Below, one piece after another: positions 5,000-60,265 of a stretch of DNA of 64,000 nt (position 1 is the stretch's first letter; every line of letters starts with the position of its first letter). The DNA is from a virus: the IMG/VR virus record IMGVR_UViG_3300031951_000087, positions 21,006-85,005 of that record; one strand, given 5' to 3'. Made by a program: the position numbers and the translations under genes. Under the pieces are notes generated by a model. That model did not search any database, was not told where the DNA came from, and saw only the letters and a list, made by a program, of their open reading frames with translations.

Positions 5000-5007
5000 A
5001 ATAAATA
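5000..5007 (-). promoter_or_regulatory. TATTTATT element before tape-measure gene
   Basis: On the minus strand this octamer reads TATTTATT and ends 3 bases before ATG 4996. It belongs to the window-wide TATTTATN family placed just upstream of starts. Confidence 0.55.
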
Positions 5008-5190
5008 TTATTTATTGGATTTTTCACGAGCCTCCATAATCATATCGTGTTCTTGAAGAACCTTACCAATAAAATATTTTCTTTCATATGTTGGCATATT
5101 CATAATATCAACATATGAAAAGTTAGCGTTTTTAACTAAAAAAAATGTTTCGTCTAATAGTATTTTTTTATACTCCGAAGAAAGGGCGAA
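5008..5190 (-). CDS. Start-less +1-frame extension of gp26-like gene (frameshift product)
   Basis: This is a minus-strand reading frame of about 60 codons with no usable start. In-frame TAG at 5199-5197 blocks it upstream, and the first ATG would leave only 31 residues. The encoded sequence (ALSSEYKKILLDETFF, then MNMPTYERKYFIGKVL, then EAREKSNK) looks like a real protein tail. It sits in the +1 frame relative to the gp26-like gene, whose zero frame ends at TAA 5170-5168. Between those two stops the zero frame reads TTT TTT CGC. A P-site Phe-tRNA on TTT could slip forward to TTC, with CGC an uncommon codon in this AT-rich genome. Tail assembly chaperones upstream of tape measures often use programmed frameshifts, so I infer a fused product. 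A sequencing indel is the alternative. Confidence 0.6.
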   Translation of the reverse strand, partial: FALSSEYKKILLDETFFLVKNANFSYVDIMNMPTYERKYFIGKVLQEHDMIMEAREKSNK

Positions 5191-5920
5191 AAAAGTCTAC
5201 CCCAAAATTGACAGTGATGTCAATTATTTCTCCTGACGGGGTTCTGACTTGTTTGGTTAAATCCAATCTTGGCTCAACCTCTTTTAAAAATTTTCTAATA
5301 AATTTAGAATCGGCAATTGGCATTTGTTGAACATACTTTACAATAGATTCTCTATCCGAACTACCATTTATTGAAATAATCTGAGCTTCCAACTTTCTTG
5401 TAATAATTGGTGCTATCATACTTTTTGGGTAGATTTCCATTTCCTTGTCAATCATGTTCTCTTCACCATATGTTAAAAGTTTTAGTTTAACAATATCTTT
5501 TGAAGTGGGTAATGTTGTTTCAAACAGACCTTCTTGGTCAGGTGTTAGGTCAACTTTTTTTATATTTAATTCGCTCAAATCAACCTCAGCATCAAATCTT
5601 TGATTTGTTTTTGGGTCATATGATGACAATATATATTTTGTTCCAAATGCGGTATTTCTTAAAAAAAGTAAAATAGCTTCAATATCACCACCTAACATTT
5701 CATCAATCCTAAAATCAGGTTCGTAAATTTTTGATTTCAATAATTGATTAATCACATTATCACTATTTGAACTCATTAGCAGATTTTCATCTTGGGCCGT
5801 CAAATATCCAACCTTAACCGATTTCTTTTTATTTTTATAAAATAAACCTTGTGAAGGTAGTGGTACCACATCGTGTGGTAAGTTAAAATTCATTTGTCCG
5901 TATTGTATTTCGTTTTCCAT
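5168..5920 (-). CDS. gp26: gp26-like baseplate hub / tail assembly chaperone protein
   Basis: 250 residues from ATG 5920 (MENEIQYGQMNF). A TTG four codons upstream falls in a terminator stem and is not preferred. The pattern LPSQGLFYKNKKKSVKVGYLTAQDE, then LLKSKI, then LGGDIEAILLFLRNTAFG resembles the T4 gp26 baseplate family (Pfam T4_baseplate), in which LPS-G-FY and an ILI-LR segment are typical. In T4 gp26 is about 208 residues and acts in hub/tail assembly. Its place between tube gp19 and the tape measure is that of tail assembly chaperones. The C-terminus ends VDFFRPFFGV before TAA 5168; a +1-frame extension follows. Family assignment is moderate, positional role reasonable. Confidence 0.6.
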   Translation of the reverse strand: MENEIQYGQMNFNLPHDVVPLPSQGLFYKNKKKSVKVGYLTAQDENLLMSSNSDNVINQLLKSKIYEPDFRIDEMLGGDIEAILLFLRNTAFGTKYILSSYDPKTNQRFDAEVDLSELNIKKVDLTPDQEGLFETTLPTSKDIVKLKLLTYGEENMIDKEMEIYPKSMIAPIITRKLEAQIISINGSSDRESIVKYVQQMPIADSKFIRKFLKEVEPRLDLTKQVRTPSGEIIDITVNFGVDFFRPFFGV

Positions 5921-5949
5921 AAAAAAAGCCAAGGATTACCCCTGGCTTT
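5921..5949 (-). terminator. Factor-independent terminator after tail tube gene
   Basis: The minus strand reads AAGCCA, a loop containing GG and CC, then TGGCTT and a run of T. The arms are at 5943-5948 and 5926-5931. It follows the gp19 stop at 5986 by under 40 bases, and its T-run directly abuts the gp26-like ATG at 5920. Transcripts reaching gp26 and the tape measure therefore probably come from read-through. Confidence 0.75.
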
Positions 5950-5985
5950 AAATATAAACTGACTTTGTTTTTTGTAAATGAAATA

Positions 5986-6474
5986 TTAATAAACTAAGAT
6001 ACATCTATCAGGACGAAGTGTTGCTGAGATGGTTTGTAAACCGTCATCAGTATAAGACACACCCTGAAAGTCCACGTCTGTTAGGAAACAACCTTGTAAA
6101 ATCCATTTTTCAACCGCAACACCTGTCGGGTCTAACATTTCCAAAGTAATATCCTTTTTATAACCAGCAGCATATCCCATACGACCTGTTACTGATTCAG
6201 CGTGTAAACGAACCCATTCCATAAGTGCTTGAGCAGCTGATGGTCCAATAGGGTCACGGAAAGTAACACCAATTGTTCCCCATTCAAACATACCAGCAAC
6301 ATAAGTTTTGGTATTTAAGAAAGGAATATCTTTTGATGCAATTGTTATTTTTGGTCTGGCAGCAGATTCTACATACCAAGAATTAATACCCAATGAAGTA
6401 GGAAACGTTAAAATAAATCGGTTTTTACGTTTTGGTTCATACGGGTCGGGCATTTTCATTAATAAGTCAGCCAT
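5986..6474 (-). CDS. gp19: Tail tube protein gp19
   Basis: 162 residues beginning MADLLMKMPDPYEPKRKNRF. The order PxxYEPKRxNRFxLxFP, then the aromatic-rich FEWGTIGVTFRDPIGPSAAQ, then the Asp/Gly C-terminal strands ending DRCILVY fits the T4 gp19 tube family (T4 gp19 is about 163 residues). Hexamers of this protein stack into the inner tube through which DNA passes, inside the gp18 sheath. The gene has its own upstream TATTTATA element 40 bases before the ATG and its own terminator immediately after. This monocistronic layout suits a highly expressed structural protein. Sheath gp18 lies upstream, separated by two small genes. Identification is confident. Confidence 0.92.
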   Translation of the reverse strand: MADLLMKMPDPYEPKRKNRFILTFPTSLGINSWYVESAARPKITIASKDIPFLNTKTYVAGMFEWGTIGVTFRDPIGPSAAQALMEWVRLHAESVTGRMGYAAGYKKDITLEMLDPTGVAVEKWILQGCFLTDVDFQGVSYTDDGLQTISATLRPDRCILVY

Positions 6475-6514: not shown

Positions 6515-6522
6515 TATAAATA
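6515..6522 (-). promoter_or_regulatory. TATTTATA element upstream of gp19
   Basis: The minus strand reads AAGTATTTATAGGTAA here, 40 bases before the gp19 ATG at 6474. It is nearly identical to the copies at 20756-20763 and 25609-25616. Confidence 0.6.
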
Positions 6523-6587: not shown

Positions 6588-7442
6588 TTAATATCTAGTT
6601 TTAGTTTGAGCTTTTGTTAAATATGTAGTTACTGGATGCTCTAGACCAAATTCTTTATTTAAGAATTCTTTAACTTTTTCCACATTTCTTTCATCGTCAT
6701 CTGAGAAACCTATTGAAGGTACCACGAAATTATTGGACACATCATTTTTGAACAATACTTTCCCCCCCACCTTGTTTGCAAGTTCCTTACAATAACTGAT
6801 AAACTCTCTTAATGCGTTTATTTTTCCTTCTTCAGGATTGGCTTCAGAACCAGTTCCGAAAGATACAGGGTGAAAACGACACATGTCCAAATATTCTTTA
6901 ATCATTGTATTGTCATCTTTAATATCCTCACCTGTAAAATCACGGTATTTCTTTAATGATTCCACCAATTTTTCTTGGTCCAAACCACTCACATTATTTT
7001 TGATGAGTTTGTAAACCGCTTGTTTTAAAATCATCGGATTGTGTCCACGAGCTGTGATGATGGAAAAAATTGACCCACCATTAATACACTCAACAAAATC
7101 ATCCCATGATGGTCCCAAACTCGCCGACATTACATCAACCAAAAATTGTCTTTCACCCTCACCTCTAAAATTTCTAAAAGGATTTGATGCAAAACCAACA
7201 ATAGTTTTTCCGTTGTACACAAATGGTTTTTTACCCAATTCGTTTCTATATTCAGCAAAATCATCAGTAGACATACCAATCTCATTATCTTTGTCATCTA
7301 ATACCATAATTTTTGTTGGCATATTCATTACATTGTCATCCCAATCAAAAGCGTAATATTTGTGGTCAGGTAATCCTGATGGGTCCATACCCTCAGTTAC
7401 CATTTCTAACAATTGTCTTCTAATTGATTTTTTTAAATTCAT
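6588..7442 (-). CDS. HAD-like phosphatase-family protein
   Basis: 284 residues. An N-terminal AFDWDDNVMN (Asp33, Asp35) matches HAD motif I (DxD). SIITARGH near residue 130 matches the Ser/Thr of motif II, and an acidic GFSDDDERN near residue 250 could be motif IV. HAD enzymes are phosphohydrolases or phosphotransferases acting through an Asp-phosphate; the substrate cannot be read from the sequence. It sits between tube and sheath genes, an odd place for an enzyme, and its ATG overlaps the stop of a 48-residue ORF (TAATG), implying translational coupling. The gene ends 113 bases before gp19. Two other HAD-type proteins occur in this window. Confidence 0.7.
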   Translation of the reverse strand: MNLKKSIRRQLLEMVTEGMDPSGLPDHKYYAFDWDDNVMNMPTKIMVLDDKDNEIGMSTDDFAEYRNELGKKPFVYNGKTIVGFASNPFRNFRGEGERQFLVDVMSASLGPSWDDFVECINGGSIFSIITARGHNPMILKQAVYKLIKNNVSGLDQEKLVESLKKYRDFTGEDIKDDNTMIKEYLDMCRFHPVSFGTGSEANPEEGKINALREFISYCKELANKVGGKVLFKNDVSNNFVVPSIGFSDDDERNVEKVKEFLNKEFGLEHPVTTYLTKAQTKTRY

Positions 7443-7588
7443 TACTTTTTGTCTTTTGATAATTTTGCAATGATACTTTCTAACTGTGATTCAGTTAAAA
7501 CAATGTTTTGTGGTTTTTTAGAATAAGTTTTTTTACCATTAGTTGGTACTTCTAAACTTTCCATTAATACTTTTTTTGTAAATTCCAT
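7442..7588 (-). CDS. Small hypothetical protein coupled to HAD gene
   Basis: A 48-residue ORF from ATG 7588 (MEFTKKVLMESLEVPTNGKK) to TAA 7442, too short for many gene callers. It is Lys-rich with a helical C-terminus (LTESQLESIIAKLSKD). The stop overlaps the next ATG by one base (TAATG), and a TATTTATA element sits 9 bases before its start, so it is probably the first gene of a two-gene unit. No family recognised. Confidence 0.6.
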   Translation of the reverse strand: MEFTKKVLMESLEVPTNGKKTYSKKPQNIVLTESQLESIIAKLSKDKK

Positions 7589-7597
7589 AGTTTTATA

Positions 7598-7605
7598 TAT
7601 AAATA
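7598..7605 (-). promoter_or_regulatory. TATTTATA element before small ORF/HAD pair
   Basis: The minus strand reads ATTATTTATATATAAAAC here; the octamer ends 9 bases before ATG 7588. Confidence 0.55.
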
Positions 7606-7644: not shown

Positions 7645-10600
7645 TTAAATATTTTCAAACGAAGCTCCTGTTGGTGTAATCAAGAACTCAATGTCAATGA
7701 ATTCAAGAGCTTTTGTTGGTTTAAGGTAAATTTTACCTGTCATTGTGTTTCTATCCAAGTCTTCAGGTGTGTTTGTTACAACAACTCTAAAGTCAATTAA
7801 ACCTCTATCTCTTCTGATTGAATCCAAAATTGGATTAACAGAGTCTAAGAAATCTTGTCTAACTTTGTCATCGTTTTGTTCAAACAACAATCTGACAGCT
7901 ACAGCTGAAATCAACTTACGAGCTTGTAACAACAATCTTCTTACGTTAATTCTATCAAGAGCAGATTCTGCGACTTGAGTAGTCTTGTTACCAAAAATTA
8001 ATGTTCCAACATCAGAGAATGTTGCGATTGGGTTGATTCTACCTTGATATAATGTATCTCTATCGTCTTGTGTAAGTTTCTTACGAGCTTTAACTGAATT
8101 TACAATACCTCTTGTGTAACCTGCTGATGCGAACCAAGGGAACGAAATGTTATCAGTCAATGCTAAGTTTCTACAAACCTCAGCGGTTGGTGGAAGGTAA
8201 ATTTGAGTATTATTGACAGTGTCTCTTGTTAATACCCAAGGGTAGTAAGTTGCTGTGTAGTTAGAATCAATTCCTGTTGTGTCTAAATTGTCGACAGCTT
8301 CAGTTGGATAAATTAAATCAGTTTCGTACGATGTTGTTGTATCAACAAACATATTGTAATCAGGACAAGTCATTACATATAAAGAGTCTGCCCTTTGAGA
8401 TTCAATCATATCAATTGCGTCTTCAACTAAGTTAGAGTTATTAACAAAATCGATACCCGGTGTTACAAACACGTTGATATTTGTAGCCTCAGGGTTAGCA
8501 AATGTTTGTTGACCTAGTAAGTATGCGTAGTAGTCGGTGTTAGCAAAATCAGTTGTATTACCTTCTACAGATATTTGTTTGAACGCTCCCCAACCAGTTG
8601 CACTTGGGAACTGAGTTGTTGGTGATGCACCTTTTAAGTAACCTGAACCACCTAATACAAAGTTATCACCGTTGGTTCTTGATTTTCTATAAATGTCCCA
8701 ACCATCAAAACCTCCACGAGCAAACAACGTGAATTTTCTTGATTGGATTCTAAAATATGGATTTGTAGGGTCACTTGAGTCAGTTGGTCCAAAAGAAGCG
8801 TTTCCAACTTCAAAAGCAGAAGTGCCCGAAGTACTATAACCATTTGATATAGTAACAACAGTAGCACCTGAATCCATGTGGAATCCCTTAGATAAGAAAT
8901 CCCAATAACTTGGTGAAGTTTCGATTGTTAAATTTGAAGGTGTGATAATACCTTTATAATTAAAATATTCAGGGTCATAACCAATTGTGTTGGACAAACC
9001 TAAGAATACTCTATTAATTTTATCACCTGAACTTCTTTGAACAGATGATAAAGGTGGTTGGAATATAACCTCACCTGCAACATCATATTTAGTTTTATAA
9101 ATTGGGAATGGTGTTGTTGAACCATAATAATTTCTCATTGAATATCCTTCGAACCCACTCGGTAATGCGTCTGTCGGTGCTTCAGAACTAATTTCTAACA
9201 TTACATATTTAGACCTTACTTGATATTCACCATCACTAGTTCCAATTTTTACACCAACGAAACTGTTAGAAGCTGGGTTCATAGAACAATTTGTATATTT
9301 TTCTAAGAACACTGGATTTGCATCTGTATCATTATATGCTCTGATACCAACATCAAAAGTACCATTGTTAAACGAAACGTTTAATATTGATATTTTTACT
9401 TCTTGGTTAGCGTCGTTACCATCAGAAATTAAAATAAACTTGAATAATTTATAAACAGTATTACCTCTCAATTCTGAAACTAAATAAGGTGTTTCAGGAG
9501 TTTGATATTTTTCTAAGTAACAACCAATAGATTGTAAAGTACCGTTATCGTCTTGAGCGGATGGTAAAGCTGTGATGGTTTCGTTAATACCTCTAATGTA
9601 ACCTTTCTTGTATGAATAATTAAGAAAATTCGTAAATTGTTCTTCAACAAATAAAGGAACTTCATCTGAAGGTTTACCGAAGTTAGAAAAACCAAATACT
9701 TTAGAAATATAATTACTGTCTGTTGAATCCAAAGACACTTTAAATTCAAACGTACTACCATCATTAGTAACACCCGAAATTCCGAACGGTGCGTAAGGAC
9801 TCATTGTTACACCACTATAAACGCCATTACTATCCAATACAACACTAGTCGTACCCGTAACTTCATAAACAGGATTTGTTCCTGTTGTATATGTTGACAG
9901 ACCTCTTGAACGTAAAGTCGCAACAACAACATCATTGTATTCTGTAAAGGCAGTACCAATTTGTGTAAAAGCCGATAATTGAACCGAACCCGAAAACGAA
10001 CCTGACGCACCTGTTAAGGTGTCAATTTTTGAACTAAACGAATATCCCGAATATCCATTACCAGTTGTTGGGTTGAATTGAGCGTAGTACCAAGCGTCAT
10101 TATCTCTACTTGGATAATCAGTATCAGCGTCTTTTAAACTCGGAACATCATAAACATTTGTTAATCCTGTCCATCCACCACCCGTAAGTGAGTCATAATA
10201 AGAGTCGGGTATTGTACCAAATACGTAAGCAGTTGTTGCACTTGTTGATGCCGCAGATGCGTTAGAACCAATTACACCACTAACAAATGTCTTTAACTCA
10301 GAACTGATAGTTGATGTTGTACCATCCGATAATGTGAATTGACTATTTAAATCAGGACTAAAAATAGTTGATGGGAATGGAGACTCAAACAAAATAGTTG
10401 ATGTCCCACCAGTTGTTCCTGTAAAAGTTACGGAAACCGACGAAAGAACACTATCTTGTGAAACTGAACCACCACTCACGTTCGCAATAGTACTAATAGA
10501 CCAAGATGGTCCCGCATCATAACCCGACAAACCAAGAATTCTTGATACGAATAATTGGTTAGATTGTGATAAGTATGATTTGGCGATATACGCCGCTTCG

Positions 10601-10858: not shown

Positions 10859-10866
10859 CATAAATA
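10859..10866 (-). promoter_or_regulatory. TATTTATG element upstream of gp18
   Basis: The minus strand reads AATATTTATGTAG, 34 bases before ATG 10824. It is a single-base variant of the window consensus. Confidence 0.5.
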
Positions 10867-12689: not shown

Positions 12690-12697
12690 GATAAATA
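12690..12697 (-). promoter_or_regulatory. TATTTATC element before gp14-like gene
   Basis: The minus strand reads TTGTATTTATCAATAATG, with the octamer 4 bases before the ATG. No exact copy faces the divergent helicase gene on the plus strand. Confidence 0.55.
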
Positions 12698-14505: not shown

Positions 14506-14523
14506 GTTTTTTGAAAATCTATT

Positions 14524-14531
14524 TATTTATA
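14524..14531 (+). promoter_or_regulatory. TATTTATA element before dismutase fusion
   Basis: The plus strand reads TATTTATTTATAAGATAATG; the octamer ends 15 bases before ATG 14547. Confidence 0.5.
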
Positions 14532-16109: not shown

Positions 16110-16117
16110 TATTTATA
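16110..16117 (+). promoter_or_regulatory. TATTTATA element before gp13
   Basis: It begins on the base after the dismutase-fusion stop and ends 6 bases before ATG 16124. It supports ATG 16124 over the in-frame start at 16106. Confidence 0.55.
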
Positions 16118-20341: not shown

Positions 20342-20349
20342 AATAAATA
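20342..20349 (-). promoter_or_regulatory. TATTTATT element upstream of DNA polymerase
   Basis: The minus strand reads ATATATTTATTTAGAC, 56 bases before ATG 20285, the longest spacing seen. Confidence 0.4.
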
Positions 20350-20755: not shown

Positions 20756-20763
20756 TATAAATA
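20756..20763 (-). promoter_or_regulatory. TATTTATA element before BppU-like gene
   Basis: The minus strand reads AAGTATTTATAGATAATGG, 4 bases from the ATG at 20751. It is one of the clearest examples of the consensus. Confidence 0.6.
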
Positions 20764-25588: not shown

Positions 25589-25596
25589 GATAAATA
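25589..25596 (-). promoter_or_regulatory. TATTTATC element before Cys-rich fibre gene
   Basis: The minus strand reads TTGTATTTATCTATTGAATG; the octamer ends 6 bases before the ATG at 25582. A mirror copy faces the other way 12 bases further on. Confidence 0.55.
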
Positions 25597-25608: not shown

Positions 25609-25616
25609 TATTTATA
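25609..25616 (+). promoter_or_regulatory. TATTTATA element of divergent plus-strand operon
   Basis: The plus strand reads GGTATTTATAGATAAAC, 16 bases before ATG 25633. With the minus-strand copy it makes a 50-base divergent control region, each gene having its own oriented element. Confidence 0.6.
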
Positions 25617-41260: not shown

Positions 41261-42070
41261 ATGGAAAATAAAGTAGATATTTCAGTTATATTACCAATCG
41301 CATCATCATTTGGAAAAGATTTTGACATTCTTTTTGAAAAAGCGATTGACTCAATAAAAAAACAACAAGTTTCAATTAATGAACTTATTATTGTTCATTC
41401 GGATGAAGAATCATTATGTACTAAATTAAATTCATTTGATTTTGGTGATTTAAATGTTGTTAAAGTATTAAACACATCAGAACATACTGATTACGCATCA
41501 CAAGTTAATCTTGGTGTCAAAAACGCATCATCAACATGGGTTAGTTTCTTTGAACACGATGATGAATATTCGTTTATATGGTTTAAAAATGTGAATGATT
41601 ATATTAAATACCACCCTGAGTGTGATGGATTTTTACCAATCGTTGTTGATGTTGATGAAACAGATGTATTCGCGGGATACACAAATGAAGCAACATTTGC
41701 GGCTTCATTCAACACTGAAATTGGTATTCTAACTAATGAATTGTTAAATCAATATCAAAATTTCCAAACAAGTGGAATGGTTGTTAAAAAATCAATTTTG
41801 GATAATTTTGGTGGTTTTAAAAAATCAATGAAACTAACATTTGTTTATGAATTTTTATTAAGATTGACATATAACTCAGCAAGAATAATGACTATTCCAA
41901 GATTGGGATACAAACATGCTAACATGAGAGAATCATCAATTTTTTGGGGATATAAAAACGGAAAAAATGTTTTGACCGACAACGAGGTTAAGTTTTGGAT
42001 TGATACAGCAAAAAAAGAATATTTTTTTACAAATGACCGTGACATAAAATACGAAGAAACCACTAATTAA
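41261..42070 (+). CDS. GT2-family glycosyltransferase
   Basis: 269 residues. VDISVILPIASSFGKDF is a GT2 first strand, INELIIVHSDEES the second, and STWVSFFEHDDEYS carries the DxD-like HDDE motif, then TSGMVVKKSIL and MKLTFVYEFLLR with the ED-like catalytic region. Last gene of the glycan block; its stop overlaps the sigma factor ATG (TAATG), linking the cassette to the late regulator in one transcript. Confidence 0.75.
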   Translation: MENKVDISVILPIASSFGKDFDILFEKAIDSIKKQQVSINELIIVHSDEESLCTKLNSFDFGDLNVVKVLNTSEHTDYASQVNLGVKNASSTWVSFFEHDDEYSFIWFKNVNDYIKYHPECDGFLPIVVDVDETDVFAGYTNEATFAASFNTEIGILTNELLNQYQNFQTSGMVVKKSILDNFGGFKKSMKLTFVYEFLLRLTYNSARIMTIPRLGYKHANMRESSIFWGYKNGKNVLTDNEVKFWIDTAKKEYFFTNDRDIKYEETTN

Positions 42071-42825
42071 TGATAGTTTCCGAAACAATTCCAAGCGGGA
42101 ACACTGAATCCGCAGACTCAAAACGCAGTAAAAAAATTAAGTCAAATAATTATTTTGACGTAAGAGAAGAGACTGCGGTTGTTATGTTTTTGGAAGCTGA
42201 AACTATGAAAGAAAGAAACGAAATTTATAATGAGTTTCTTAAAAAACCAATAGAAAAAATGGTTTCTTCTATAATTAGAAGATACAAATTATATAGAAAG
42301 GACATGTCATTTGATGAAATATTAAATGACACCCATTCTTTTTTAATTACAAAATCAGACAAGTTCAAACCAGATAAGAACAAAAAAGCATATTCTTATT
42401 TTGGTACGATTTGTAAAAATTATTTGATGGGTCAAATTATAAAAGACCAAAAGGATACCAATAGAAAAGTATCTTATGAAGATATTTCATCTAGTTTAGA
42501 AGAAAGACCTGATTTGGTGTATTACATTGAAGATGACATAATTGAAACTGATAAAATAATAATAGATTATATCGCTCAACTAAAAACGTTCATTGACGTA
42601 TCATCATTAAACGAAAATGAGGTTAAATTAGGTTATGCTTTGTTAGAATTATTTGAAAATTATGATTCAATTTTTGTTGGTAATGATAACAAAAAATTTA
42701 ACAAAAATTTGGTTTTAATGTCAATTCGTGAAATGACAAACCTTTCAACAAAAGAAATTAGATTAAGTATGAAAAAATACAAAAAACTATATTTTGATTT
42801 TGTTAAAAGTATTGATAACAGATAA
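42070..42825 (+). CDS. gp55: gp55-like late sigma factor
   Basis: 251 residues. Residues about 35-130 contain a sigma-70 region 2 pattern, with the FDEILNDTHSFLITKSDKFK segment followed by KAYSYFGTICKNYLMGQII, as in T4 gp55 and relatives. Region 2 binds the core polymerase clamp and opens the -10 element. A short C-terminal helix cluster (KEIRLSMKKYKKLYFDFVKS) may include a sliding clamp contact. T4 gp55 recognises TATAAATA; here the repeated upstream element is TATTTATN. It starts in the stop of the last glycosyltransferase. Confidence 0.65.
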   Translation: MIVSETIPSGNTESADSKRSKKIKSNNYFDVREETAVVMFLEAETMKERNEIYNEFLKKPIEKMVSSIIRRYKLYRKDMSFDEILNDTHSFLITKSDKFKPDKNKKAYSYFGTICKNYLMGQIIKDQKDTNRKVSYEDISSSLEERPDLVYYIEDDIIETDKIIIDYIAQLKTFIDVSSLNENEVKLGYALLELFENYDSIFVGNDNKKFNKNLVLMSIREMTNLSTKEIRLSMKKYKKLYFDFVKSIDNR

Positions 42826-42839
42826 AATCCGTTGTTAAA

Positions 42840-42847
42840 TATTTATA
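42840..42847 (+). promoter_or_regulatory. TATTTATA element after gp55-like gene
   Basis: The plus strand reads AAATATTTATAAGTATG: 3 bases from ATG 42851. If it were a -10 box, transcription would start inside the gene. Confidence 0.55.
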
Positions 42848-42850
42848 AGT

Positions 42851-47171: not shown

Positions 47172-47179
47172 TATTTATA
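47172..47179 (+). promoter_or_regulatory. TATTTATA element before virion protein gene
   Basis: The plus strand reads TTGATATTTATATATAATG, 4 bases from ATG 47184. It begins one base after the previous stop. Confidence 0.55.
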
Positions 47180-49401: not shown

Positions 49402-49436
49402 AAATAAAAAAAAGGGGTTTTAAGACCCCTTTTTTA
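49402..49436. terminator. Bidirectional terminator between convergent genes
   Basis: GGGGT (49414-49418) and ACCCC (49425-49429) form the stem, flanked by A-run upstream and T-run downstream, so it works on both strands. The minus-strand gene's own stop codon lies inside the loop (49420-49422), so its last codons form part of the stem. Confidence 0.8.
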
Positions 49437-50325: not shown

Positions 50326-50333
50326 TATAAATA
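50326..50333 (-). promoter_or_regulatory. TATTTATA element before Cys-rich gene
   Basis: The minus strand reads AAGATATTTATATATAATAA, 18 bases before ATG 50307. It also sits 7 bases before the divergent plus-strand ATG 50341, but in the opposite orientation for that gene. Confidence 0.5.
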
Positions 50334-50608: not shown

Positions 50609-52405
50609 TTATCTCAATTCTCTTAAGTCAAATGTTCTAACACCATCAACTGTGATTTTACCGTAGAAACGGTTGTTCACCATCTTCTTAGCGTATCTTG
50701 TCATGATACCTTTGATAGGTGTGAAGTTGAATGGGTTATACATTGTTGGAGTCAATTGTAATGGTACGTATGGTGCGTACACATAACCTGTGTCTAACAA
50801 TGAGTTACCTTTATGACCAATCAACACTGTGTTTGGTGGAAAATAAGGGTCTCTGTAAACTTGGTATCTACCAGCCAAAGTTCCAACTCTTTCAATACCC
50901 ATGTTATATTGGTCTTGCTCAGGAGCTGCGTTTGATACGTGGAAGTATTCCAAATCATCAAAGATTGCACTGATTTCAGAAGAAACAACAATCCAGTTAG
51001 CTCCACCTCTCAATGTTGATTTGTGGATTTGAGCTGAAAGTTGGTTGATTGCTGTAATCAATGTTTGGTTCCAATCTTTTTGTGTGTATTGTGTTAATGG
51101 ATTTGCAGTTGTACCTCTCTTCCAACCGTTGTAATCCCATCTCAAAGTCCATGCTGCACCTTTTCTCAAATCTCTCAAGATTTCTCTATCAATTTCTGCC
51201 GCAACTTGCTCAGACAATAAAGCTGTTAATTCAGCTTCAGCGTCAATGTTGTGGAATGCTGCAACGTCTTGTGCTAATTCAGGAGACCATTGTGCTCTCA
51301 ATTTTCTTTCAGTTACAGAAACTGTTACTGATTCCAAATCAAAAGAAACTTCACCGATTTCATCTTCAAATTCTAAGTTTTGATAAACTCTATATGTACA
51401 TTTGAATGCTTGATTATATGCGGTTGTTACAGATGTTGTAACACCTGAGTAACCATCTAAAGAATCAGCACCGATTGAACAAGGAACTTGAGTATCCACC
51501 TCTAAGTAAATAATACCAAGAGCATCACAGATATTGTCATAAGAACCTCCATTACCTGTACTTGGGAATGATGTTGTTGCTTGTGAACCATATTGTACAA
51601 TACCTTTACCGTATTTTTGAGTTACAACTCTAAATAATTGGTTACCAGACAATCCTGAAAAACCATTTGAAGTAGCATCTGTAATTGGTGTTACAGATAA
51701 GCTAGACAAAAACTCTTCAGAATCCATTTCGTTACCGTTAGGACCAATTAATTTACCAGCACCAGCTGTGTTAAATCCTGATAAAGCAATAATAACTTTT
51801 CTGTATTCACCAGCACTGTAACCACTTTGGATTAATTCTGAACCACTCCAAACTTGTGTAGACGCTGTGTATGTTTCAGCACTAAACTTACCTTTAGAAT
51901 AGTCAAATAACCCTGGAGGGTCTAATGATGCTTCGTTACCTTCGTAGAATCTGTCATACAAATTCTTATCGTTTGCGCCATAACCAGCATTTGTTGATGA
52001 TGGTCCATTAGGTGCTCCAAAAGGTGCGAAGTGTGTACCACCTTCAGTTGGGTCTTGACCCATGTCATAACCCTGAATTTTAGGTACGAAGTAGAACAAT
52101 TTACCGATAGGTAAGTTCATAGCTTGTACAGATACGATGTCGTTAGCCAACAATTTAGAGAAAACTCTTCTTACGATTGGAAATACAACCGTTTCGAAAG
52201 AACCGTCTGATGCTGTGCTAGCAGCTTCGTTAATTAAGTGAGATGCTTGGTTTTCATAAAGTTGAGCGATGTTTTCTTTAACATGTCCTCTCAAACCTTC
52301 CAAGAATCCTAATTTGTCCCATTTGTTAATAGTATCTTCTTTGATAACTTTAAGGTGCTTAAGACCGATGTTACCAACAAGACCTGATTCTAATAATGCT
52401 CCCAT
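50609..52405 (-). CDS. gp23: Major capsid protein gp23
   Basis: 598 residues. The N-terminus MGALLESGLVGNIGLKHLKV, then WDKLGFLEGLRGHVKENIAQ and FPIVRRVFSKLLANDIVSVQ with PxGKLFY, is the gp23 family. The later FEDEIGEVSFDLESVTVS and the RLRAQWSPELAQDVAAFHNI segment are conserved core parts. Hexamers make the shell. The prohead protease gp21 cuts gp23 after (L/I)-x-E; LINE|A at residues 57-61 fits that rule (T4 cuts after residue 65). It is downstream of gp22, closed by a strong hairpin. The gap before it has no exact TATTTATN copy. Confidence 0.95.
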   Translation of the reverse strand: MGALLESGLVGNIGLKHLKVIKEDTINKWDKLGFLEGLRGHVKENIAQLYENQASHLINEAASTASDGSFETVVFPIVRRVFSKLLANDIVSVQAMNLPIGKLFYFVPKIQGYDMGQDPTEGGTHFAPFGAPNGPSSTNAGYGANDKNLYDRFYEGNEASLDPPGLFDYSKGKFSAETYTASTQVWSGSELIQSGYSAGEYRKVIIALSGFNTAGAGKLIGPNGNEMDSEEFLSSLSVTPITDATSNGFSGLSGNQLFRVVTQKYGKGIVQYGSQATTSFPSTGNGGSYDNICDALGIIYLEVDTQVPCSIGADSLDGYSGVTTSVTTAYNQAFKCTYRVYQNLEFEDEIGEVSFDLESVTVSVTERKLRAQWSPELAQDVAAFHNIDAEAELTALLSEQVAAEIDREILRDLRKGAAWTLRWDYNGWKRGTTANPLTQYTQKDWNQTLITAINQLSAQIHKSTLRGGANWIVVSSEISAIFDDLEYFHVSNAAPEQDQYNMGIERVGTLAGRYQVYRDPYFPPNTVLIGHKGNSLLDTGYVYAPYVPLQLTPTMYNPFNFTPIKGIMTRYAKKMVNNRFYGKITVDGVRTFDLRELR

Positions 52406-53756: not shown

Positions 53757-53764
53757 TATAAATA
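53757..53764 (-). promoter_or_regulatory. TATTTATA element upstream of gp22
   Basis: The minus strand reads GCATATTTATAGTGTAAAT, 32 bases before ATG 53724. It may drive gp22 and gp23. Confidence 0.55.
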
Positions 53765-54055: not shown

Positions 54056-54778
54056 TTATCTATATCCCAAAAAATCGTTCAATTTTCCCATTAAGTCAAG
54101 CGATTTACCTAAACCACCATCAATTCTTCCATCTTCTTTTGATTTTTTTTCTTCTTCAAGATTTTCATCGTATTTGTGACGGTCATCCTTATTAAGGAAT
54201 AGATAAGCGCCGGGTGTAGATGGATTCATAACCAAGTCAAAACAAATCATTTCATAATCATTTTGAACTTCATTGTGTTCTCCCTTTTTAGCTAAAGAAC
54301 CTACACCACGTGAAGATACCCCCATCGTAACACCTTGTCTCATTAAGTTTGCCGCTACATCACCCTTAGATGATACAATACCTCTTTCATGGAAACCTGG
54401 TGTTGTTAATAACCTTAGTTTACCCATAAGAACGTTATCATCCCACCATATATCATCAATAATGTGTGATACTCTGTCTAAATCAATCAAAGATGATTCA
54501 GGGTGATTAAGTTCTGATGTTGCCAAACCTTTAGATATTGTTTGTTTATATTTTTCAGCTTCTCTTTTAAGAATATTTTCAGGATATACACGACCATTTC
54601 TATTAGGTGTACCATACTTTTGTAGAGTTGCGTAAAATACAAATGGTTTAGAGTGGTCTAATTGTGATTTTTGTTCATTAACTAAATCAGTATCTACGGC
54701 ATTTTTCATAGATATATGACCTGCATCATATTCTATCAATATTCCTTTACCTATTTCATTCGGTTTAAGTATCTTCAT
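54056..54778 (-). CDS. gp21: Prohead protease gp21
   Basis: 240 residues. NGRVYP (61-66), ELNHPES (His92) and GVSSRGVGSL (Ser155/156) are the signature motifs of the gp21-type (family U9/S80-like) serine protease. It cuts scaffold gp22 and capsid gp23 during head maturation. T4 gp21 is about 212 residues. The C-terminus is charged and likely removed by self-cleavage. It lies upstream of the scaffold gp22 in T4 order. The start ATG 54778 has the TATTTATT element 15 bases upstream. Confidence 0.9.
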   Translation of the reverse strand: MKILKPNEIGKGILIEYDAGHISMKNAVDTDLVNEQKSQLDHSKPFVFYATLQKYGTPNRNGRVYPENILKREAEKYKQTISKGLATSELNHPESSLIDLDRVSHIIDDIWWDDNVLMGKLRLLTTPGFHERGIVSSKGDVAANLMRQGVTMGVSSRGVGSLAKKGEHNEVQNDYEMICFDLVMNPSTPGAYLFLNKDDRHKYDENLEEEKKSKEDGRIDGGLGKSLDLMGKLNDFLGYR

Positions 54779-54793: not shown

Positions 54794-54801
54794 AATAAAT
54801 A
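54794..54801 (-). promoter_or_regulatory. TATTTATT element before gp21
   Basis: The minus strand reads TAATATTTATTGATAAAT, 15 bases before ATG 54778. It abuts the stop of the upstream gene. Confidence 0.5.
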
Positions 54802-55260
54802 TTAGAATATCTCAAAGTTTTTGTTTTTCAACTTGTTTTTAGAATATTGAATGGTAAAATACTTTGATTTCTTTAAAACATTGTCGTGAACTTCTTTTAA
54901 TACGTGATTTAATTCTGTTGATATATTTTCAGATTTGAACTCAATATTTTCTTTTGTAAAGAATGTAATTTCAAGATTTAAAAAACTTGCTTTATCTACT
55001 TTTATCCCACTTGTTCTTAAATCTAAATCAACAATAAAATGTTCTTTGAATAATGATTTATTGTAAACTTCTAAAACTTTATGTTTAATAGTTCGAGATA
55101 TTGTCCCAACTACTCTTTCCCAATTATCCCTTTCTTGTGTGGGTGTTACCCATGTTTGTAATACTAAATAAATTGATTTTAATTCTGTCGCATCTACACT
55201 ACCGTAATAGCACTTAGCATCTTGGAATAAATCCAATTTTGATGTTTTTCCTTTTTTCAT
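54802..55260 (-). CDS. Hypothetical head-region protein
   Basis: 152 residues. Basic N-terminus (MKKGKTSKLDLFQDAKCYYG) and a series of helices and strands (WERVVGTISRTIKHKVLEVY), ending in a Lys-rich tail. It sits between the portal region and gp21. No motif or family recognised; a head assembly or DNA-packaging accessory is possible. Confidence 0.5.
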   Translation of the reverse strand: MKKGKTSKLDLFQDAKCYYGSVDATELKSIYLVLQTWVTPTQERDNWERVVGTISRTIKHKVLEVYNKSLFKEHFIVDLDLRTSGIKVDKASFLNLEITFFTKENIEFKSENISTELNHVLKEVHDNVLKKSKYFTIQYSKNKLKNKNFEIF

Positions 55261-55343: not shown

Positions 55344-55351
55344 TATTTATA
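55344..55351 (+). promoter_or_regulatory. TATTTATA element before bS21 gene
   Basis: The plus strand reads TGTATATTTATATCAATAAC, 21 bases before ATG 55373, in a 112-base divergent gap. Confidence 0.55.
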
Positions 55352-55372: not shown

Positions 55373-55567
55373 ATGATAAAAATAATTTTAGAAAAAGGTG
55401 AAAGTTTGGAAAAAGCTTTAAAACGTTACAAACACAAAGTTATCAAAACAAAACAAATTGAACAACTTCGTGCAAAACAAGAGTATGTTAAAAAAACAAC
55501 TTTGAAAAGGGAACAAATAAAAAAAGCAATATACAAACAACAAATCGCCCAAAGTAACTTTGACTAA
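55373..55567 (+). CDS. rpsU: Phage-encoded ribosomal protein bS21
   Basis: 64 residues. MIKIILEKGESLEKALKRYK, then KTKQIEQLRAKQEYVKKT and a Lys-rich end with KKAIYKQ, follow the bS21 family, being closest in pattern to the Bacteroidota form (KRYKRK, LRxRQxxxKP, KAxYxQ). Tyr54 corresponds to the tyrosine that, in Flavobacterium ribosomes, is reported to help hold the anti-Shine-Dalgarno end of 16S rRNA. bS21 is the small-subunit protein that most influences initiation. A phage copy could replace the host protein and tune ribosomes to phage mRNA. It is co-directional with a small membrane protein on a short plus-strand unit inside the head operon. Confidence 0.85.
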   Translation: MIKIILEKGESLEKALKRYKHKVIKTKQIEQLRAKQEYVKKTTLKREQIKKAIYKQQIAQSNFD

Positions 55568-55575
55568 TATTTATT
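55568..55575 (+). promoter_or_regulatory. TATTTATT element before membrane protein
   Basis: The plus strand reads CTAATATTTATTGGTAAC. It overlaps the TTG at 55574, arguing for the later ATG 55595, which it precedes by 19 bases. Confidence 0.5.
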
Positions 55576-55865: not shown

Positions 55866-56591
55866 TTAAAGTCCTTCTGACAACTTTTTAAGTTTGTAAT
55901 ATGATAAGGAATCAATCGGTGTTGATTCTATTCTTACCTTTGTTTCATTTAATTTTTTGTTGGTATCATCATCACTTTCGTTAATACTTGAAAGTTTTCC
56001 AAGAACCTCAGTTTTCAATCTTTCAATACCTTCACTCAATTCTTCTTGTGACATTCTTAAGATTGATTTTAATTCAAACAATTCAGATTCACTTAATTGT
56101 GAATATTCTTTTGCGAATGTGTCAGCTGCCACACCAAACATAGATTCTAATGGAATGTTAACTGATTCTGTGATTGTTGATTCTTCTTTTGTTTCTGACA
56201 TTAACTTCCACATTTGTTTTCTTGATTCAACCAATTTAGTAAAATCATCGGCGGTTTTTGCATAAACCATGTTATCTAATAACTCATATTGATTATCAAT
56301 ACTTTCTCCTAAAGTTTCAACCCAGCTGTCGAACTGTTCAAATTCACGTTTGTTACTGTTAATTGTATTTTTTATGAAATCAACTGAAAGTCCCAAAAAT
56401 TCTTTCGCAACTTCTTCGTTCAATCCTTTGGTTTTCATTAAGGAACCGTATTCAACATATAGTTCACCAACGGATTTGTTGTCCTTAATAAAATCTCTAA
56501 ATTCTTTTATAATTTGTTTAAAATCTTCAGTTTTGTATGTTTTAACTAAAGCATTTTCAACAATACTTTTTAATAATCCAAAATTTCTCAT
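55866..56591 (-). CDS. Hypothetical, helical, next to the portal gene
   Basis: 241 residues, nearly all helix and acidic (MRNFGLLKSIVENALVKTYK, then ESESELFELKSIL-like and NKKLNETKVRIE). It follows the portal gene by 13 bases on the same strand. In T4 small core proteins gp67/gp68 lie between gp20 and gp21; a similar core or internal protein role is possible here, but there is no sequence match. A TATTTATT element lies 3 bases from its ATG. Confidence 0.5.
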   Translation of the reverse strand: MRNFGLLKSIVENALVKTYKTEDFKQIIKEFRDFIKDNKSVGELYVEYGSLMKTKGLNEEVAKEFLGLSVDFIKNTINSNKREFEQFDSWVETLGESIDNQYELLDNMVYAKTADDFTKLVESRKQMWKLMSETKEESTITESVNIPLESMFGVAADTFAKEYSQLSESELFELKSILRMSQEELSEGIERLKTEVLGKLSSINESDDDTNKKLNETKVRIESTPIDSLSYYKLKKLSEGL

Positions 56592-56594: not shown

Positions 56595-56602
56595 AATAAA
56601 TA
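56595..56602 (-). promoter_or_regulatory. TATTTATT element before hypothetical head gene
   Basis: The minus strand reads AAGATATTTATTGATATG, 3 bases before ATG 56591. Confidence 0.5.
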
Positions 56603-56604: not shown

Positions 56605-58446
56605 TTAAGTATTTAATAATTCGTTTAATTTGGTTTCAATTTCATTAATTGATGTTCTACCTTTAGATAAATCAATTTCATCTCTACCACTAATTAAATC
56701 ATCTTCCAAAATTAAATTTAAATCGTTCATTTTACTTTCAGGTGTTACTTCACCTCCAGCCGGTGGTTCAGGGGATTCAGGAATATCAGGTGCTCCACCC
56801 ATATCTTCAGGTCCTCCACCTATTCCACCTAAACTACCCATATCACCACTTGGTGGTGCTCCACCCATATCGTCACCCTCAGCAGGTGGCGTGGCTGTTT
56901 CACCGGGTTTCTTACCATACAATCTATCAATATTATCAAAAATACCTGTATGAATAATTACCTCAGGAGTTTTTTGTAATTCAGCCCCAACTGCTTTTTC
57001 AATTCTTTGTTGTTGGATATCCAATTTAATTTCCTCATCAGAGAATCCAAGAATGTGTTTTTTTGCCCATGTTGTTGATACCGCTTGGATACCGTTACCT
57101 GGGTCAGAAACCGCATCTTTATAAAGAAGTATTTTTTCTTTCCAATTCTCAATCTTTAATAAATCAGCTTGAGTTGATGGGTTAGTTAATCCTAATGTGA
57201 AGTTTGTTAATTCATCTTCAAAACCAAGAATAAACAAGTGAATAATTGCAATCTTATTTAATTCCTGAATCATTGATTTTTGAATTCTATTAATTGTTCT
57301 CGCAAAACGAATATCTTGTAATGCCAAGTTCTTACCATCACCAACAACTTCTTCAAAACCTAAGAACGCTTTTGGTACACGAAGAGCGGTTAATAATTTC
57401 TTTTGGATATATTCAATATCGGCAATTTCAGAAAGGTTCTGTGCTCCCGCCAATGTTTCAATAGGACTTGTTTGTGCTGGGTCACGAACAGGAATGAAAT
57501 AATCTTGGTCAACCGCCATTTGGTTCATTCTTAAGTCAACGTTACCTGTTTTTGAGTCAACAACTTGGTCTCTCTTAAACTTATTAGCAATTCTTTGAAT
57601 GTATGGTTCAACGTCCTTATCATCCATGTTACCAACATAAACTTTGAATACACGTCTTTCAGGTGCTCTTGATGTTCTATACACCAACATTGCATCTTCT
57701 GATAATAACAACTGTTTCCAAGTACGTCTTGCTTTTTCCAACATAGCAGTACCATAAGGAAGTTTTCTATCATCACCTAACAAACGGAAGTGTGCGACCT
57801 CCCAAGTATTCATTTCCATATCTTTTACTTTCCATACGAATTTCAAAGATTTTGCATCCTCAGTTGTATTATGTGATGGTTTGATTTTCATACCACGTTC
57901 CAAACGTTCAATTTCAATGTTTGGAAGTTGTTGACAACCCATAATACCTTTTTCAGAATCTAATTTTAAGTAAACAAAGTTATCACCATACTTACAAGTG
58001 TTTCTTGTCCACATTGGTAAGTTGGTGTTAATATCTAATCTGTTATTAAATAAATCCGCTAATATTCCCTTAATTCTATTTGATTCTGAATATATTTGTA
58101 GAATATATCCATCTTCATTTGTTGTTGTTGATTCTTCAGCGTAGATATCTAAAGCTGCGGAAATTTCAGGAGTGTATTCCATTGATTCATAATCATAATA
58201 TGATGCCAATCTTGTTGGTTCATAATAAATTGCCTGAGAATATAAATTATTTTCTACTTTACCCCATTGTTGACCAAGATACATTGTCTGTTGAGCTTGG
58301 AGTTTTTCCTTCTCAAATTCTTGCTTATCTGTGGTTTTTAATAATTCCTTCTTATCAAATTTATAAACTGGAGGCTGTTGACCCAAAGTTGAGTCGGGAC
58401 CAAAGACTTTGGTAAGTCGTTGCCATATGGTGAAATTGTCTGCCAT
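56605..58446 (-). CDS. gp20: Portal vertex protein gp20
   Basis: 613 residues. YYEPTRLASYYDYESMEYTP and AALDIYAEESTTTNEDG, then MWTRNTCKYGDNFVYLKL, KPSHNTTEDA, GTAMLEKARRTWKQLLLSED and RAPERRVFKVYVGNMDDKDV, are conserved gp20 blocks. The dodecamer makes the head's DNA entry/exit ring. T4 gp20 is 524 residues; the extra length is a Gly/Pro-rich C-terminal region (about 520-575). The gene follows gp17 as in T4 order 17-20 with sheath and tube genes moved away. Upstream the gap has a TATATTTAG variant with an AGAGGG just before ATG. Confidence 0.93.
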   Translation of the reverse strand: MADNFTIWQRLTKVFGPDSTLGQQPPVYKFDKKELLKTTDKQEFEKEKLQAQQTMYLGQQWGKVENNLYSQAIYYEPTRLASYYDYESMEYTPEISAALDIYAEESTTTNEDGYILQIYSESNRIKGILADLFNNRLDINTNLPMWTRNTCKYGDNFVYLKLDSEKGIMGCQQLPNIEIERLERGMKIKPSHNTTEDAKSLKFVWKVKDMEMNTWEVAHFRLLGDDRKLPYGTAMLEKARRTWKQLLLSEDAMLVYRTSRAPERRVFKVYVGNMDDKDVEPYIQRIANKFKRDQVVDSKTGNVDLRMNQMAVDQDYFIPVRDPAQTSPIETLAGAQNLSEIADIEYIQKKLLTALRVPKAFLGFEEVVGDGKNLALQDIRFARTINRIQKSMIQELNKIAIIHLFILGFEDELTNFTLGLTNPSTQADLLKIENWKEKILLYKDAVSDPGNGIQAVSTTWAKKHILGFSDEEIKLDIQQQRIEKAVGAELQKTPEVIIHTGIFDNIDRLYGKKPGETATPPAEGDDMGGAPPSGDMGSLGGIGGGPEDMGGAPDIPESPEPPAGGEVTPESKMNDLNLILEDDLISGRDEIDLSKGRTSINEIETKLNELLNT

Positions 58447-58483
58447 CCCTCTAAATATAGTATCTTTTTTTTATGAATAAACT

Positions 58484-60253
58484 TTATCTTCTACCGAATA
58501 ACCATAAATACTGTTCATAATCCTTTTTTGTTGGATTTGATGAAAAAGCATCGTTATATCCTGTTGGTGATAAAACAGGCATTCCCGGATTAAATTGTGT
58601 TATTTCTCTATTTGTACTGTCGTCAGCTACGGTCCAAGAGCTTAACATAGCCTTTGTTTGTTCATTAACCTTTTCAAGTTGATTATATGCGTTTTGTCCA
58701 ACATATAAAGCCATTGACATTGACATAATTAAATCATCATGTTGCCCTTTCATGTGGTCAGGTCGTCCGTTTATATAAACATACGTATTCATCTCACCAA
58801 GTAATCTAGCAGAATACAATTTAAATCCATGTCTTAACGCTTCCTCAAACGCCGCAATAATTTGAACCCTTTTACCATTAAAGTTTATACCCGGTATTTT
58901 TTCATTAGACTTAACAGTTGACTCCCAAATATTACCATAATTAATTCCATCAACATATAAGTTTTTATAACCCAATTCTTGTAATTTTCTTGATGTTGAA
59001 ACTCCCATACCACCCGTAATATCAATAACAATAAACGCATCGTAGTAATTTCCCCACTTATAAGCAATTTCAGCCGCAACATCAGGAGGAAGTTTTCCAA
59101 CATACTCGGCAACTTGTTCCCTTTCGTCAAAATCGATAACTTGGAATGATGTAAAATCCTCAGAGTCACCCCTTGATACGTCCATACCCATAATGTATCT
59201 GTGACCAACAACTGGTTCTTTCCAAATCCATAATTGATTTTGAACCATCTTTGATTCAGGTTGACGAACCATTTCAGTTCTAATCTTATCAGTTAATTGT
59301 GCATCGAATACGTTATCTCCCGAACCTAAAAAGTTACATTCCAACTCCTGAGAAATTTTTCTCTTATCAAATTTTAACTTTTTGGCCATAGTTTCAAACC
59401 AACCAGAACTTACTTTGTAACCATCATCCATTAATTTTTTGAAATCACCAAAATTTCTTTGACTTGTTGGTACACCATCAAAACTAATAATCTCAGGGTT
59501 GGGGTATTCATCACGATTTAAAAAATAGTGAATTAAATCTTTGACTTTAATAAAGTATAAATCTTTAGTATATCTTGGGTCTCTCCACCAATACATTTCA
59601 GTAACTTTAAAACTATTCATTCCTTTAATAGCCTGTTCATAGATACTGTAATAGATTGCATCATATCCGTTTGGTGTTGAAATTACAATAACTTTACCAC
59701 CTGTTGATAACGATGCCATACAAGCTGCCCAGAAATCGTCATTAGCTTCGATGTACGCAGCCTCGTCAAATATCAATACGGTAGGGGTATAACCACGAAG
59801 TGCATCAGGTGAAGTTGCAACCGCTTTGACTTCACACCCATTTGATAATTTAAAGTGTCTTTGTGAATTCTTTTCAGATGAAAATGATACCCCCATCCAA
59901 TTTGGCCACTGTTCCGTAAACCCTCTAATTTTATTAGCAAATTCTACCGCAGTATCTAATTTGTTGGCAATTACAAGAATTTTTTCAGGTTTTTGTTTGT
60001 TTGCAAAAACTACTTTTTTAGACGCCCAAGCGGCAGTAACTGTTGATACACCGGCTTGACGATATTTTAAGGCAATGTTTTCCTCGTAGTTATCATAATC
60101 TTCTACTAAGGTTTCTTGGTCAGGAAATAAATCCAACGGAACGTATTTTGACTGTGTGTTGTCATACGTTTGTAAATAATTTCTTAAAGCGTATGGAGTG
60201 TTTTTGACACACTTAGCATATTCTATAAGGGCTTGTTCTTTTGTGATACTCAT
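58484..60253 (-). CDS. gp17: Large terminase subunit gp17
   Basis: 589 residues. The ATPase half has ALKYRQAGVSTVTAAW (Walker A type, Arg65-Thr71), VLIFDEAAYIEAND (Walker B, Asp163-Glu164) and VIVISTPNGYD (coupling motif). The nuclease half has GMDVSRGDSEDF (first Asp), DAFIVIDITGGMG and HDDLIMSMSMAL (last acidic cluster). gp17 is the packaging motor that cuts concatemers and pumps DNA through the portal. T4 gp17 is 610 residues. The small subunit gp16 is not evident here. A TATTTATA element lies 4 bases before ATG 60253, with AAGGG between. Confidence 0.95.
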   Translation of the reverse strand: MSITKEQALIEYAKCVKNTPYALRNYLQTYDNTQSKYVPLDLFPDQETLVEDYDNYEENIALKYRQAGVSTVTAAWASKKVVFANKQKPEKILVIANKLDTAVEFANKIRGFTEQWPNWMGVSFSSEKNSQRHFKLSNGCEVKAVATSPDALRGYTPTVLIFDEAAYIEANDDFWAACMASLSTGGKVIVISTPNGYDAIYYSIYEQAIKGMNSFKVTEMYWWRDPRYTKDLYFIKVKDLIHYFLNRDEYPNPEIISFDGVPTSQRNFGDFKKLMDDGYKVSSGWFETMAKKLKFDKRKISQELECNFLGSGDNVFDAQLTDKIRTEMVRQPESKMVQNQLWIWKEPVVGHRYIMGMDVSRGDSEDFTSFQVIDFDEREQVAEYVGKLPPDVAAEIAYKWGNYYDAFIVIDITGGMGVSTSRKLQELGYKNLYVDGINYGNIWESTVKSNEKIPGINFNGKRVQIIAAFEEALRHGFKLYSARLLGEMNTYVYINGRPDHMKGQHDDLIMSMSMALYVGQNAYNQLEKVNEQTKAMLSSWTVADDSTNREITQFNPGMPVLSPTGYNDAFSSNPTKKDYEQYLWLFGRR

Positions 60254-60257
60254 CCCT

Positions 60258-60265
60258 TATAAATA
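60258..60265 (-). promoter_or_regulatory. TATTTATA element before gp17
   Basis: The minus strand reads GAGTATTTATAAGGGATG: 4 bases from the ATG. The AGGG between is the nearest thing to a Shine-Dalgarno in the window. Confidence 0.6.

Follow-up and report, generated by a model that had tools for sequence, protein, structure and literature searches.

TATTTAT as the probable core of late promoters in a clade of T4-like phages with a candidate gp55-related sigma factor

Why does the same short AT-rich word stand, in one orientation, in front of so many genes of a virus, in places only four bases before the start codon? The question is raised by 64,000 nucleotides (nt) of DNA, here called the window (bases 21006-85005 of the 85,005-base virus record IMGVR_UViG_3300031951_000087 of IMG/VR), which carry T4-like head and tail genes (capsid, portal, protease, terminase, sheath and tube) as well as a DNA polymerase and a helicase, and in which the heptamer TATTTAT precedes many open reading frames (ORFs). 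An initial annotation, made from the sequence alone, had noticed the element and had proposed leaderless promoters, a promoter for a gp55-like sigma factor, or an RNA-level initiation or processing signal. The element is, in our analysis, real and conserved. Most likely it is a late promoter with a variant form of the T4 late box, in the same reading direction. We hold it to be very probable that TATTTAT is the late-promoter core of a T4-like clade, an extended -10 of the form RTATTTATA that is recognized by a gp55-related sigma factor and gives leaderless or short-leader mRNAs; the first two of the proposed options are the best supported, and the RNA-level signal fits poorly. The basis is an enrichment in gaps, the orientation, conservation at operon heads, a block of A residues anchored to the motif, a bimodal spacing and a sigma-like gene.

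Across the whole window the heptamer is not enriched (44 copies against 40.6 expected, a number reached in 36 of 100 shuffles). The 40 gaps, defined as up to 150 nt upstream of a gene, hold 22 sense and 8 antisense copies in a scripted count, against a mean of 2.8 and a maximum of 9 sense copies in 1000 shuffles. Because the total is ordinary and the gaps are enriched in sense, the signal lies in place and orientation. Four of the eight antisense copies are the sense copies of an adjoining divergent gene (25590, 25609, 50327 and 55344), and the divergent 50-bp gap at 25583-25632 has one copy facing each gene. The remaining 21 kb of the record, which the initial annotation had not seen, also exceed their shuffles by far, their 11 gaps having 4 sense and 0 antisense copies against a mean of 0.21 and a maximum of 2 after shuffling. 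Most of what had been described was borne out by these counts: TATTTATN is present on the coding strand at each of the 13 coordinates given as examples, and our recount likewise gives 21 copies, two of them overlapping (14520/14524), once a copy at 36564 that lies inside an ORF is removed. The copy at 55344 is outside the 21 because the small ORF behind it (55373-55567), which matches ribosomal protein S21 (bS21; E-value 4e-4), falls below the gene-call threshold. Where eight or more copies had been placed 3-6 bases from a start, we find nine whose distance to an ATG is 4-7 nt; the shuffles have a mean of 0.51 within 3-8 nt. ORF starts are uncurated first-ATG calls; for nine ORFs of the record with a TTG or GTG first start the first ATG was taken instead, which meant a shift of 507 nt in one case and of 315 nt in another, and two of the nine ATG-near copies (12691 and 16110) depend on such a shift from TTG. 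The claim that copies often read GTATTTATAGATAA was overstated, with two exact copies in the 85-kb record.

The motif is conserved and sense-biased in related phages. Searches with gp23 and portal (best 80 of ~600 candidates each) yielded 158 IMG/VR loci, of which 54 were removed as near-duplicates to leave 104 non-redundant relatives; genes near gp23 and portal are over-represented because the loci were picked through them. Within 80 nt upstream of 881 ORF starts in these relatives there are 434 sense and 91 antisense copies. For comparison of orthologues, 105 records including that of the window, with 1283 ORFs in 229 protein clusters, were scored for the motif within 60 nt of the start. TATTTAT marks the same operon heads across the 104 relatives: the protease (69/69), the genes at 55866 (72/74) and 52441 (57/58) and the portal (56/69), and likewise the genes at 47184 (26/26), 42851 (12/12) and 49420 (38/45) and bS21 (43/72). 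Inside operons it is rare or absent, with no copy among the orthologues of the operon-internal genes 61602, 62539, 45612, 45418, 43238, 42070 and 41261; none was found before those of genes 60271 (0/34) and 54802 (0/74) either. The portal gene (gp20) had been listed as an exception, which does not hold, as its copy lies 57 nt upstream within the end of the terminase gene. The exception of gp23 does hold (motif in 1/60 orthologues), and its transcription would presumably be served by the copy at 53758..53764 before the preceding gene. One-mismatch forms at the expected spacing are absent from 59 gp23 orthologues, while TAATTAT gives 11 hits among 40 terminase orthologues that lack the exact motif. 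An exact 14-mer scan of IMG/VR appeared unspecific and was not used.

Averaged over 64 clusters and 485 sites, the element reads (A/G)TATTTAT(A); counted from the first T, offset 11 is A in 78% and offset 12 in 70%, and the logo has no -35 element. At sites 11-18 nt from the ATG (262 sites, 37 clusters), offsets 11-13 are A in 83, 89 and 91%, and the value stays at 68-100% in each distance class from 11 to 18 nt, except for offset 11 in the 11-nt class (50%, ten sites); the 784 motif-free starts are 39-58% A at positions -1 to -24. Since the distance of this A-block is fixed to the motif and not to the ATG, we read it as the predicted RNA-start region. A T4-type late promoter would have its box about one helical turn ahead of the RNA start, and here the A-block is at offsets 11-13. 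The distance from motif to ATG is bimodal in the relatives, with 37 copies at 4 nt and 25 at 5 nt, and a second peak of 65 at 13 nt and 54 at 14 nt (207 at 12-17 nt); only 3 copies lie at 0-3 nt and 22 at 6-10 nt, and antisense copies have no peaks at 4-5 or 13-14 nt. For 64 of the 74 starts in the 4-5 nt class, reading upstream in frame meets a stop before another start, and protein N-termini appear similar within clusters.

In sigma-70 promoters the first TA lies at -12/-11; carried over to this element, that numbering would give a +1 at offset 12. With 5 nt between motif and ATG the RNA would then start on the A of the ATG, a spacing of 4 needs an A one base earlier and a spacing of 3 or less would cost the start codon; copies disappear at those spacings. 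With +1 at offset 12, 302 of 492 relative sites have predicted leaders of up to 10 nt (74 at 4-5, 25 at 6-10 and 203 at 11-15 nt from the ATG). In the mechanism that we propose, a gp55-related sigma factor of the phage, encoded by ORF 42070-42825, would bind and direct host RNA polymerase to RTATTTATA without a -35 partner, and RNA would start on an A some 11-13 bases past the first T. Where the element is 4-5 bases from the ATG, as at ~15% of the sites in relatives (74/492), the mRNAs would be leaderless, and at most remaining sites the leaders would be ~6-13 nt long (262/492 lie 11-18 nt away). The genes served would be late ones, as judged from their annotation.

The candidate reader of the element was found by profile and by predicted fold. 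Among nine records searched, the gp55 family phrog_234 matches seven, namely that of the window, T4, four of five IMG/VR relatives and Flavobacterium phage immuto, and it matches none of 14 cellular controls; the match in the window record lies within ORF 42070-42825 (E-value 1.7e-4). An AlphaFold2 model of this ORF is helical (predicted local distance difference test, pLDDT, 72), and the solved structures that rank highest with it bear sigma-factor titles, with 4lup (sigmaE region 2 on -10 DNA) tied for first place at Z 8.0 and 3.1 A over 91 residues; unrelated proteins start at Z 4.9. A profile of 11 sigma homologues, that of immuto excluded, aligns to four gp55s with an E-value of 3.9e-5 (hhalign) and also finds a relative in Microcystis phage Mel-JY01 and in the uncultured phage LR756508 and none in LR756511. 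With the same alignment a PDB sequence search returned one chance-level row only, and a viral fold library gave no match at E-values up to 0.001. The ORF is likely to encode a gp55-like sigma factor. The relative in LR756508 (LR756508.1:100288-100971, in a 484-kb phage) has one in-frame TAG, which may reflect TAG recoding. Directly 3' of the sigma gene (region 42070-43228), a 125-aa gene has the most invariant leaderless spacing, at 4 nt in 11 of 12 orthologues; family searches with this gene (42851-43228) gave no convincing match.

How far does the element reach beyond the IMG/VR relatives? The top-ranked isolates in a capsid search were Mel-JY01, immuto and Rhodothermus phage RM378, besides the uncultured LR756508, and in a portal search Mel-JY01 and immuto. 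TATTTAT marks a group of mostly uncultivated T4-like viruses whose presumed hosts are Bacteroidota, and which would be the clade labelled Far-T4. A control scan of 100 kb of the 169 kb of T4 found, in sense upstream of ORFs, 13 TATAAATA against 5 TATTTATA, which shows that the scan gets orientation right. The window record has 12 TATTTATA against 4 TATAAATA, so that it is not the 8-bp T4 box that prevails there, and immuto has 24 against 6. In RM378 neither form is enriched (2 TATTTAT upstream of 145 ORFs), nor is there enrichment in LR756508 or LR756511 (1 TATTTAT each in the 50 kb examined); thus, the element is not shared by all of the wider group. In immuto the motif precedes 17 of 27 gapped genes in the virion-gene blocks against 12 of 70 elsewhere (p=3e-5); its 33 copies lie at 4-5 nt (four), 6-10 nt (none), 11 nt or more (28) and 2 nt (one). 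A different motif precedes no virion-block gene of immuto against 14 genes elsewhere, and TTTAGGTAT was observed before these 14 genes outside the blocks. At ~60-74 kb of immuto a repeated element consists of AGTTG, ~20 nt (by eye), and then TATATTTAGGTATCAATAATTAAAA or near variants. Mel-JY01 has 22 copies, of which 14 are 32-44 nt upstream. Shine-Dalgarno (SD)-like words precede 66 of 130 ORFs in T4, 67 of 231 in Mel-JY01, 6 of 211 in immuto and 4 of 77 in the window record, and among motif-bearing ORFs the numbers are 13/22, 0/33 and 1/22 for Mel-JY01, immuto and the window record. The same box appears to serve both a cyanobacterium phage, in which leaders are longer and often contain an SD, and Bacteroidota phages, in which they are short.

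Several observations weigh against a late promoter read by a gp55-related sigma. The T4 late promoter has its first T at -13 (PMC2988020), a numbering that would place +1 at offset 13, 1-2 bases inside the ATG for the 4-5 nt class, so that RNA must start 1-2 bases nearer than in T4. At sites 19-53 nt from the ATG, which come from fewer clusters, the A-block is weaker and slightly later. The motif is found in 11 of 51 terminase orthologues, and a few copies precede the operon-internal genes 53836 (5/72) and 48680 (5/37). The virion-gene blocks of immuto were delimited from annotation after the hits were known, and the 12 motif-bearing genes among the 70 outside them count here as well. As a single protein, ORF 42070-42825 reaches only an E-value of 0.013 against phrog_234; the immuto match is weak (0.008), and there is no match in one IMG/VR relative or in RM378 among the nine records searched. 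Homology between the profile of the 11 sigma homologues and four gp55s is weak, with an hhalign probability of 71%. The model has moderate confidence (predicted template modelling score, pTM, 0.45), and a Z near 8 is middling and, as the tool warns, can be a common arrangement for helical folds. LR756508 has a sigma relative with its one motif copy in 50 kb. The T4 clamp family phrog_223 was found in T4 and in none of the eight other records, among them immuto and Mel-JY01, both titled complete. Finally, bS21 and its divergent neighbor are reported to be transcribed at similar levels (PMC9723584), which the motif map does not explain, the neighbor having no motif.

An RNA-level role deserves consideration since 4-5 and 12-17 nt are the preferred distances of the copies to the ATG, and UAUUUAU there could be an unstructured or protein-bound ribosome entry site for ribosomes that do not use SD sequences. 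The mRNAs of Flavobacterium johnsoniae lack SD sequences, A-rich upstream motifs are discussed as favorable in PMC6847099, and SD-like words are scarce in the window record, as counted above. We consider this explanation unlikely: operon-internal genes share the same need for translation and mostly lack the motif, the conserved A-block keeps step with the motif rather than with the ATG, motif-to-ATG distances vary from 4 to more than 40 nt, and in Mel-JY01 most copies are far upstream and 13 of the 22 have an SD. It is still less probable that a degenerate promoter of the host type is at work. The element is AT-rich and -10-like, and the gene at 54802 does bear a TTGACA / TAnnTT pair, but the consensus of the Bacteroidota sigma ABfr, as quoted in PMC7366714 (TAnnTTTG at -7, TTTG near -33), has another core, and the logo has no -33 element. 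TAnnTTTG was tried as a promoter for immuto and the window record and gave few raw upstream hits (8 for the 211 ORFs of immuto and 7 for the 77 of the record), and immuto genes of the early region bear a separate element.

The initial annotation had stressed that the element is the T4 box in reverse complement. As a matter of sequence this is right, TATTTATA being the exact reverse complement of TATAAATA, and one could imagine a classic T4 late promoter on the opposite strand that fires away from the gene or both ways, which would also suit the similar levels of bS21 and its divergent neighbor (PMC9723584). This we regard as the most improbable of the explanations. Copies are predominantly sense to the downstream gene in the relatives, the antisense ones have no spacing peaks, the A-block lies on the downstream side, the divergent genes at 25582 and 25633 own one copy each, and T4 in the same scan returns its box in sense. 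In the same reading direction TATTTATA and TATAAATA agree at 6 of 8 positions, the two central bases being the ones that differ, and the reverse complementarity looks like a by-product of a near-palindrome.

The late-promoter reading brings the element close to the T4 late promoter (TATAAATA; gp55, gp33 and the clamp gp45), with which it shares an extended -10-like box, an AT-rich start region, placement at virion genes as judged by gene annotation and a gp55-family sigma gene; neither has a -35, as T4 late promoters are described in PMC2988020. It differs in that the central AA of T4 is TT in the window clade and in a spacing that allows predicted leaderless mRNAs, and the sigma of the window has 251 aa compared with 185 aa for T4 gp55. 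Versions of the T4 box have been proposed in silico for the T4-related phages KVP40, 44RR, S-PM2 and Aeh1 (PMC2988020), and the sole variant spelled out there, that of Aeh1 (a/gC at -13/-12), differs from the box described here. The late promoters of phiKZ, TATG with G as the RNA start, are alike in starting RNA at an ATG-like sequence (PMC5312081); they have another sequence and are read by a phage multisubunit polymerase. As the same source calls phage transcripts often leaderless, leaderless phage mRNA as such is not new. The TATTTAT element is named in no paper among the matches listed, which cover the open literature only. The Far-T4 paper PMC4360716 contains none of the words promoter, motif, sigma and gp55, and the main text of PMC9723584 has no word beginning with promoter or leader.

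The copies and the genes behind them are listed in Table 1. An inverted repeat made of two cores (5001-5015) lies four bases upstream of an ATG.

Table 1. TATTTAT cores and related features (window coordinates; orthologues scored as in the text)
Feature	Position	Strand	Context
Core	3369..3375	-	15 nt before ORF starting 3353 (1551 aa, extends beyond window)
Core	5001..5007	-	4 nt before ATG of 3398-4996; predicted leaderless geometry; inverted copy 5009-5015
Core	6516..6522	-	41 nt before tail tube gene 5986-6474
Core	7599..7605	-	10 nt before small ORF 7442-7588
Core	10860..10866	-	35 nt before tail sheath gene 7645-10824
Core	12691..12697	-	5 nt before ATG 12685; ORF called from TTG 12700, shifted to first ATG
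Two overlapping cores	14520..14530	+	16 and 20 nt before 14547-16109
Core	16110..16116	+	7 nt before ATG 16124 (TTG start shifted); head-tail adaptor-like ORF to 17239
Core, weakest case	20343..20349	-	57 nt before DNA polymerase gene 17556-20285
Core	20757..20763	-	5 nt before ATG of 20371-20751
Core	25590..25596	-	7 nt before ATG of 23681-25582; divergent 50-bp gap
Core, opposite gene in 25583-25632 gap	25609..25615	+	17 nt before 25633-26364
Candidate gp55-like sigma factor, candidate reader of element	42070..42825	+	Profile and predicted fold
Core	42840..42846	+	4 nt before ATG of 42851-43228; 12/12 orthologues, 11 at 4 nt
Core	47172..47178	+	5 nt before ATG of 47184-48683; 26/26 orthologues
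Core	50327..50333	-	19 nt before 49420-50307; 38/45 orthologues
gp23 major capsid gene without own element	50609..52405	-	1/60 orthologues
Core	53758..53764	-	33 nt before 52441-53724 (gene preceding gp23); 57/58 orthologues
Core	54795..54801	-	16 nt before prohead protease gene 54056-54778; 69/69 orthologues
bS21-adjacent gene without late element	54802..55260	-	0/74 orthologues; conserved TTGACA / TAnnTT pair instead
Core	55344..55350	+	22 nt before bS21 gene 55373-55567; 43/72 orthologues
Core	55568..55574	+	20 nt before ATG 55595 (TTG start shifted to first ATG)
Core	56596..56602	-	4 nt before ATG of 55866-56591; 72/74 orthologues
Core within terminase gene end	58504..58510	-	57 nt before portal gene 56605-58446; 56/69 orthologues within 60 nt
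Core	60259..60265	-	5 nt before ATG of terminase gene 58484-60253; in-frame TAA directly upstream (sequence reading)

The neighborhood of bS21 allows a comparison with published data. In the bS21-encoding phages of Chen et al. (2022, PMC9723584), whose hosts are predicted there as Bacteroidetes, the arrangement is like that of the window, with terminase, portal, an opposite-strand bS21, protease and capsid. The lake metatranscriptome units given in that paper join the major capsid protein gene with its upstream gene and the protease with its downstream gene, and these fit the units that the motif map predicts. The divergent neighbor of bS21, gene 54802-55260, has TTGACA before 50 of 74 orthologues (84 of 1269 over all genes, these included) and a spaced TAnnTT before 60 of 74, a pair which, from its sequence, looks like a host-type promoter. 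A bS21 relative is present in 6 of 10 records searched and was detected neither in immuto nor in the relative G004; as immuto has the element with no bS21 detected, the element does not depend on bS21. One might still ask whether the late promoter is coupled to a translation switch, in which the sigma would make mRNAs that start at the AUG or no more than about ten bases from it, a rare class in the Bacteroidota studied so far, and phage bS21 would bias ribosomes to them over leadered host mRNAs. We consider such coupling doubtful, and against a strict form of it stand immuto and G004, both without detectable bS21, immuto still carrying the element and having four of its copies at 4-5 nt.

Transcripts of the Bacteroidota studied so far mostly have longer leaders. 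The average is 33 nt in F. johnsoniae. In that species leaders exceed 10 nt in 87% of the predicted transcripts (PMC6847099), and in Bacteroides thetaiotaomicron ~3.7% of 5' untranslated regions are below 10 nt (PMC7366714). The element described here offers a testable late-promoter code for a mostly uncultivated T4-like clade, with a cultured member, immuto, and a named candidate sigma factor. It predicts late mRNAs nearly without a leader, unlike most messages of those Bacteroidota, and it bears on why such phages may encode their own bS21. The few spacings that would give leaders of 1-5 nt also let one ask how ribosomes handle very short leaders.

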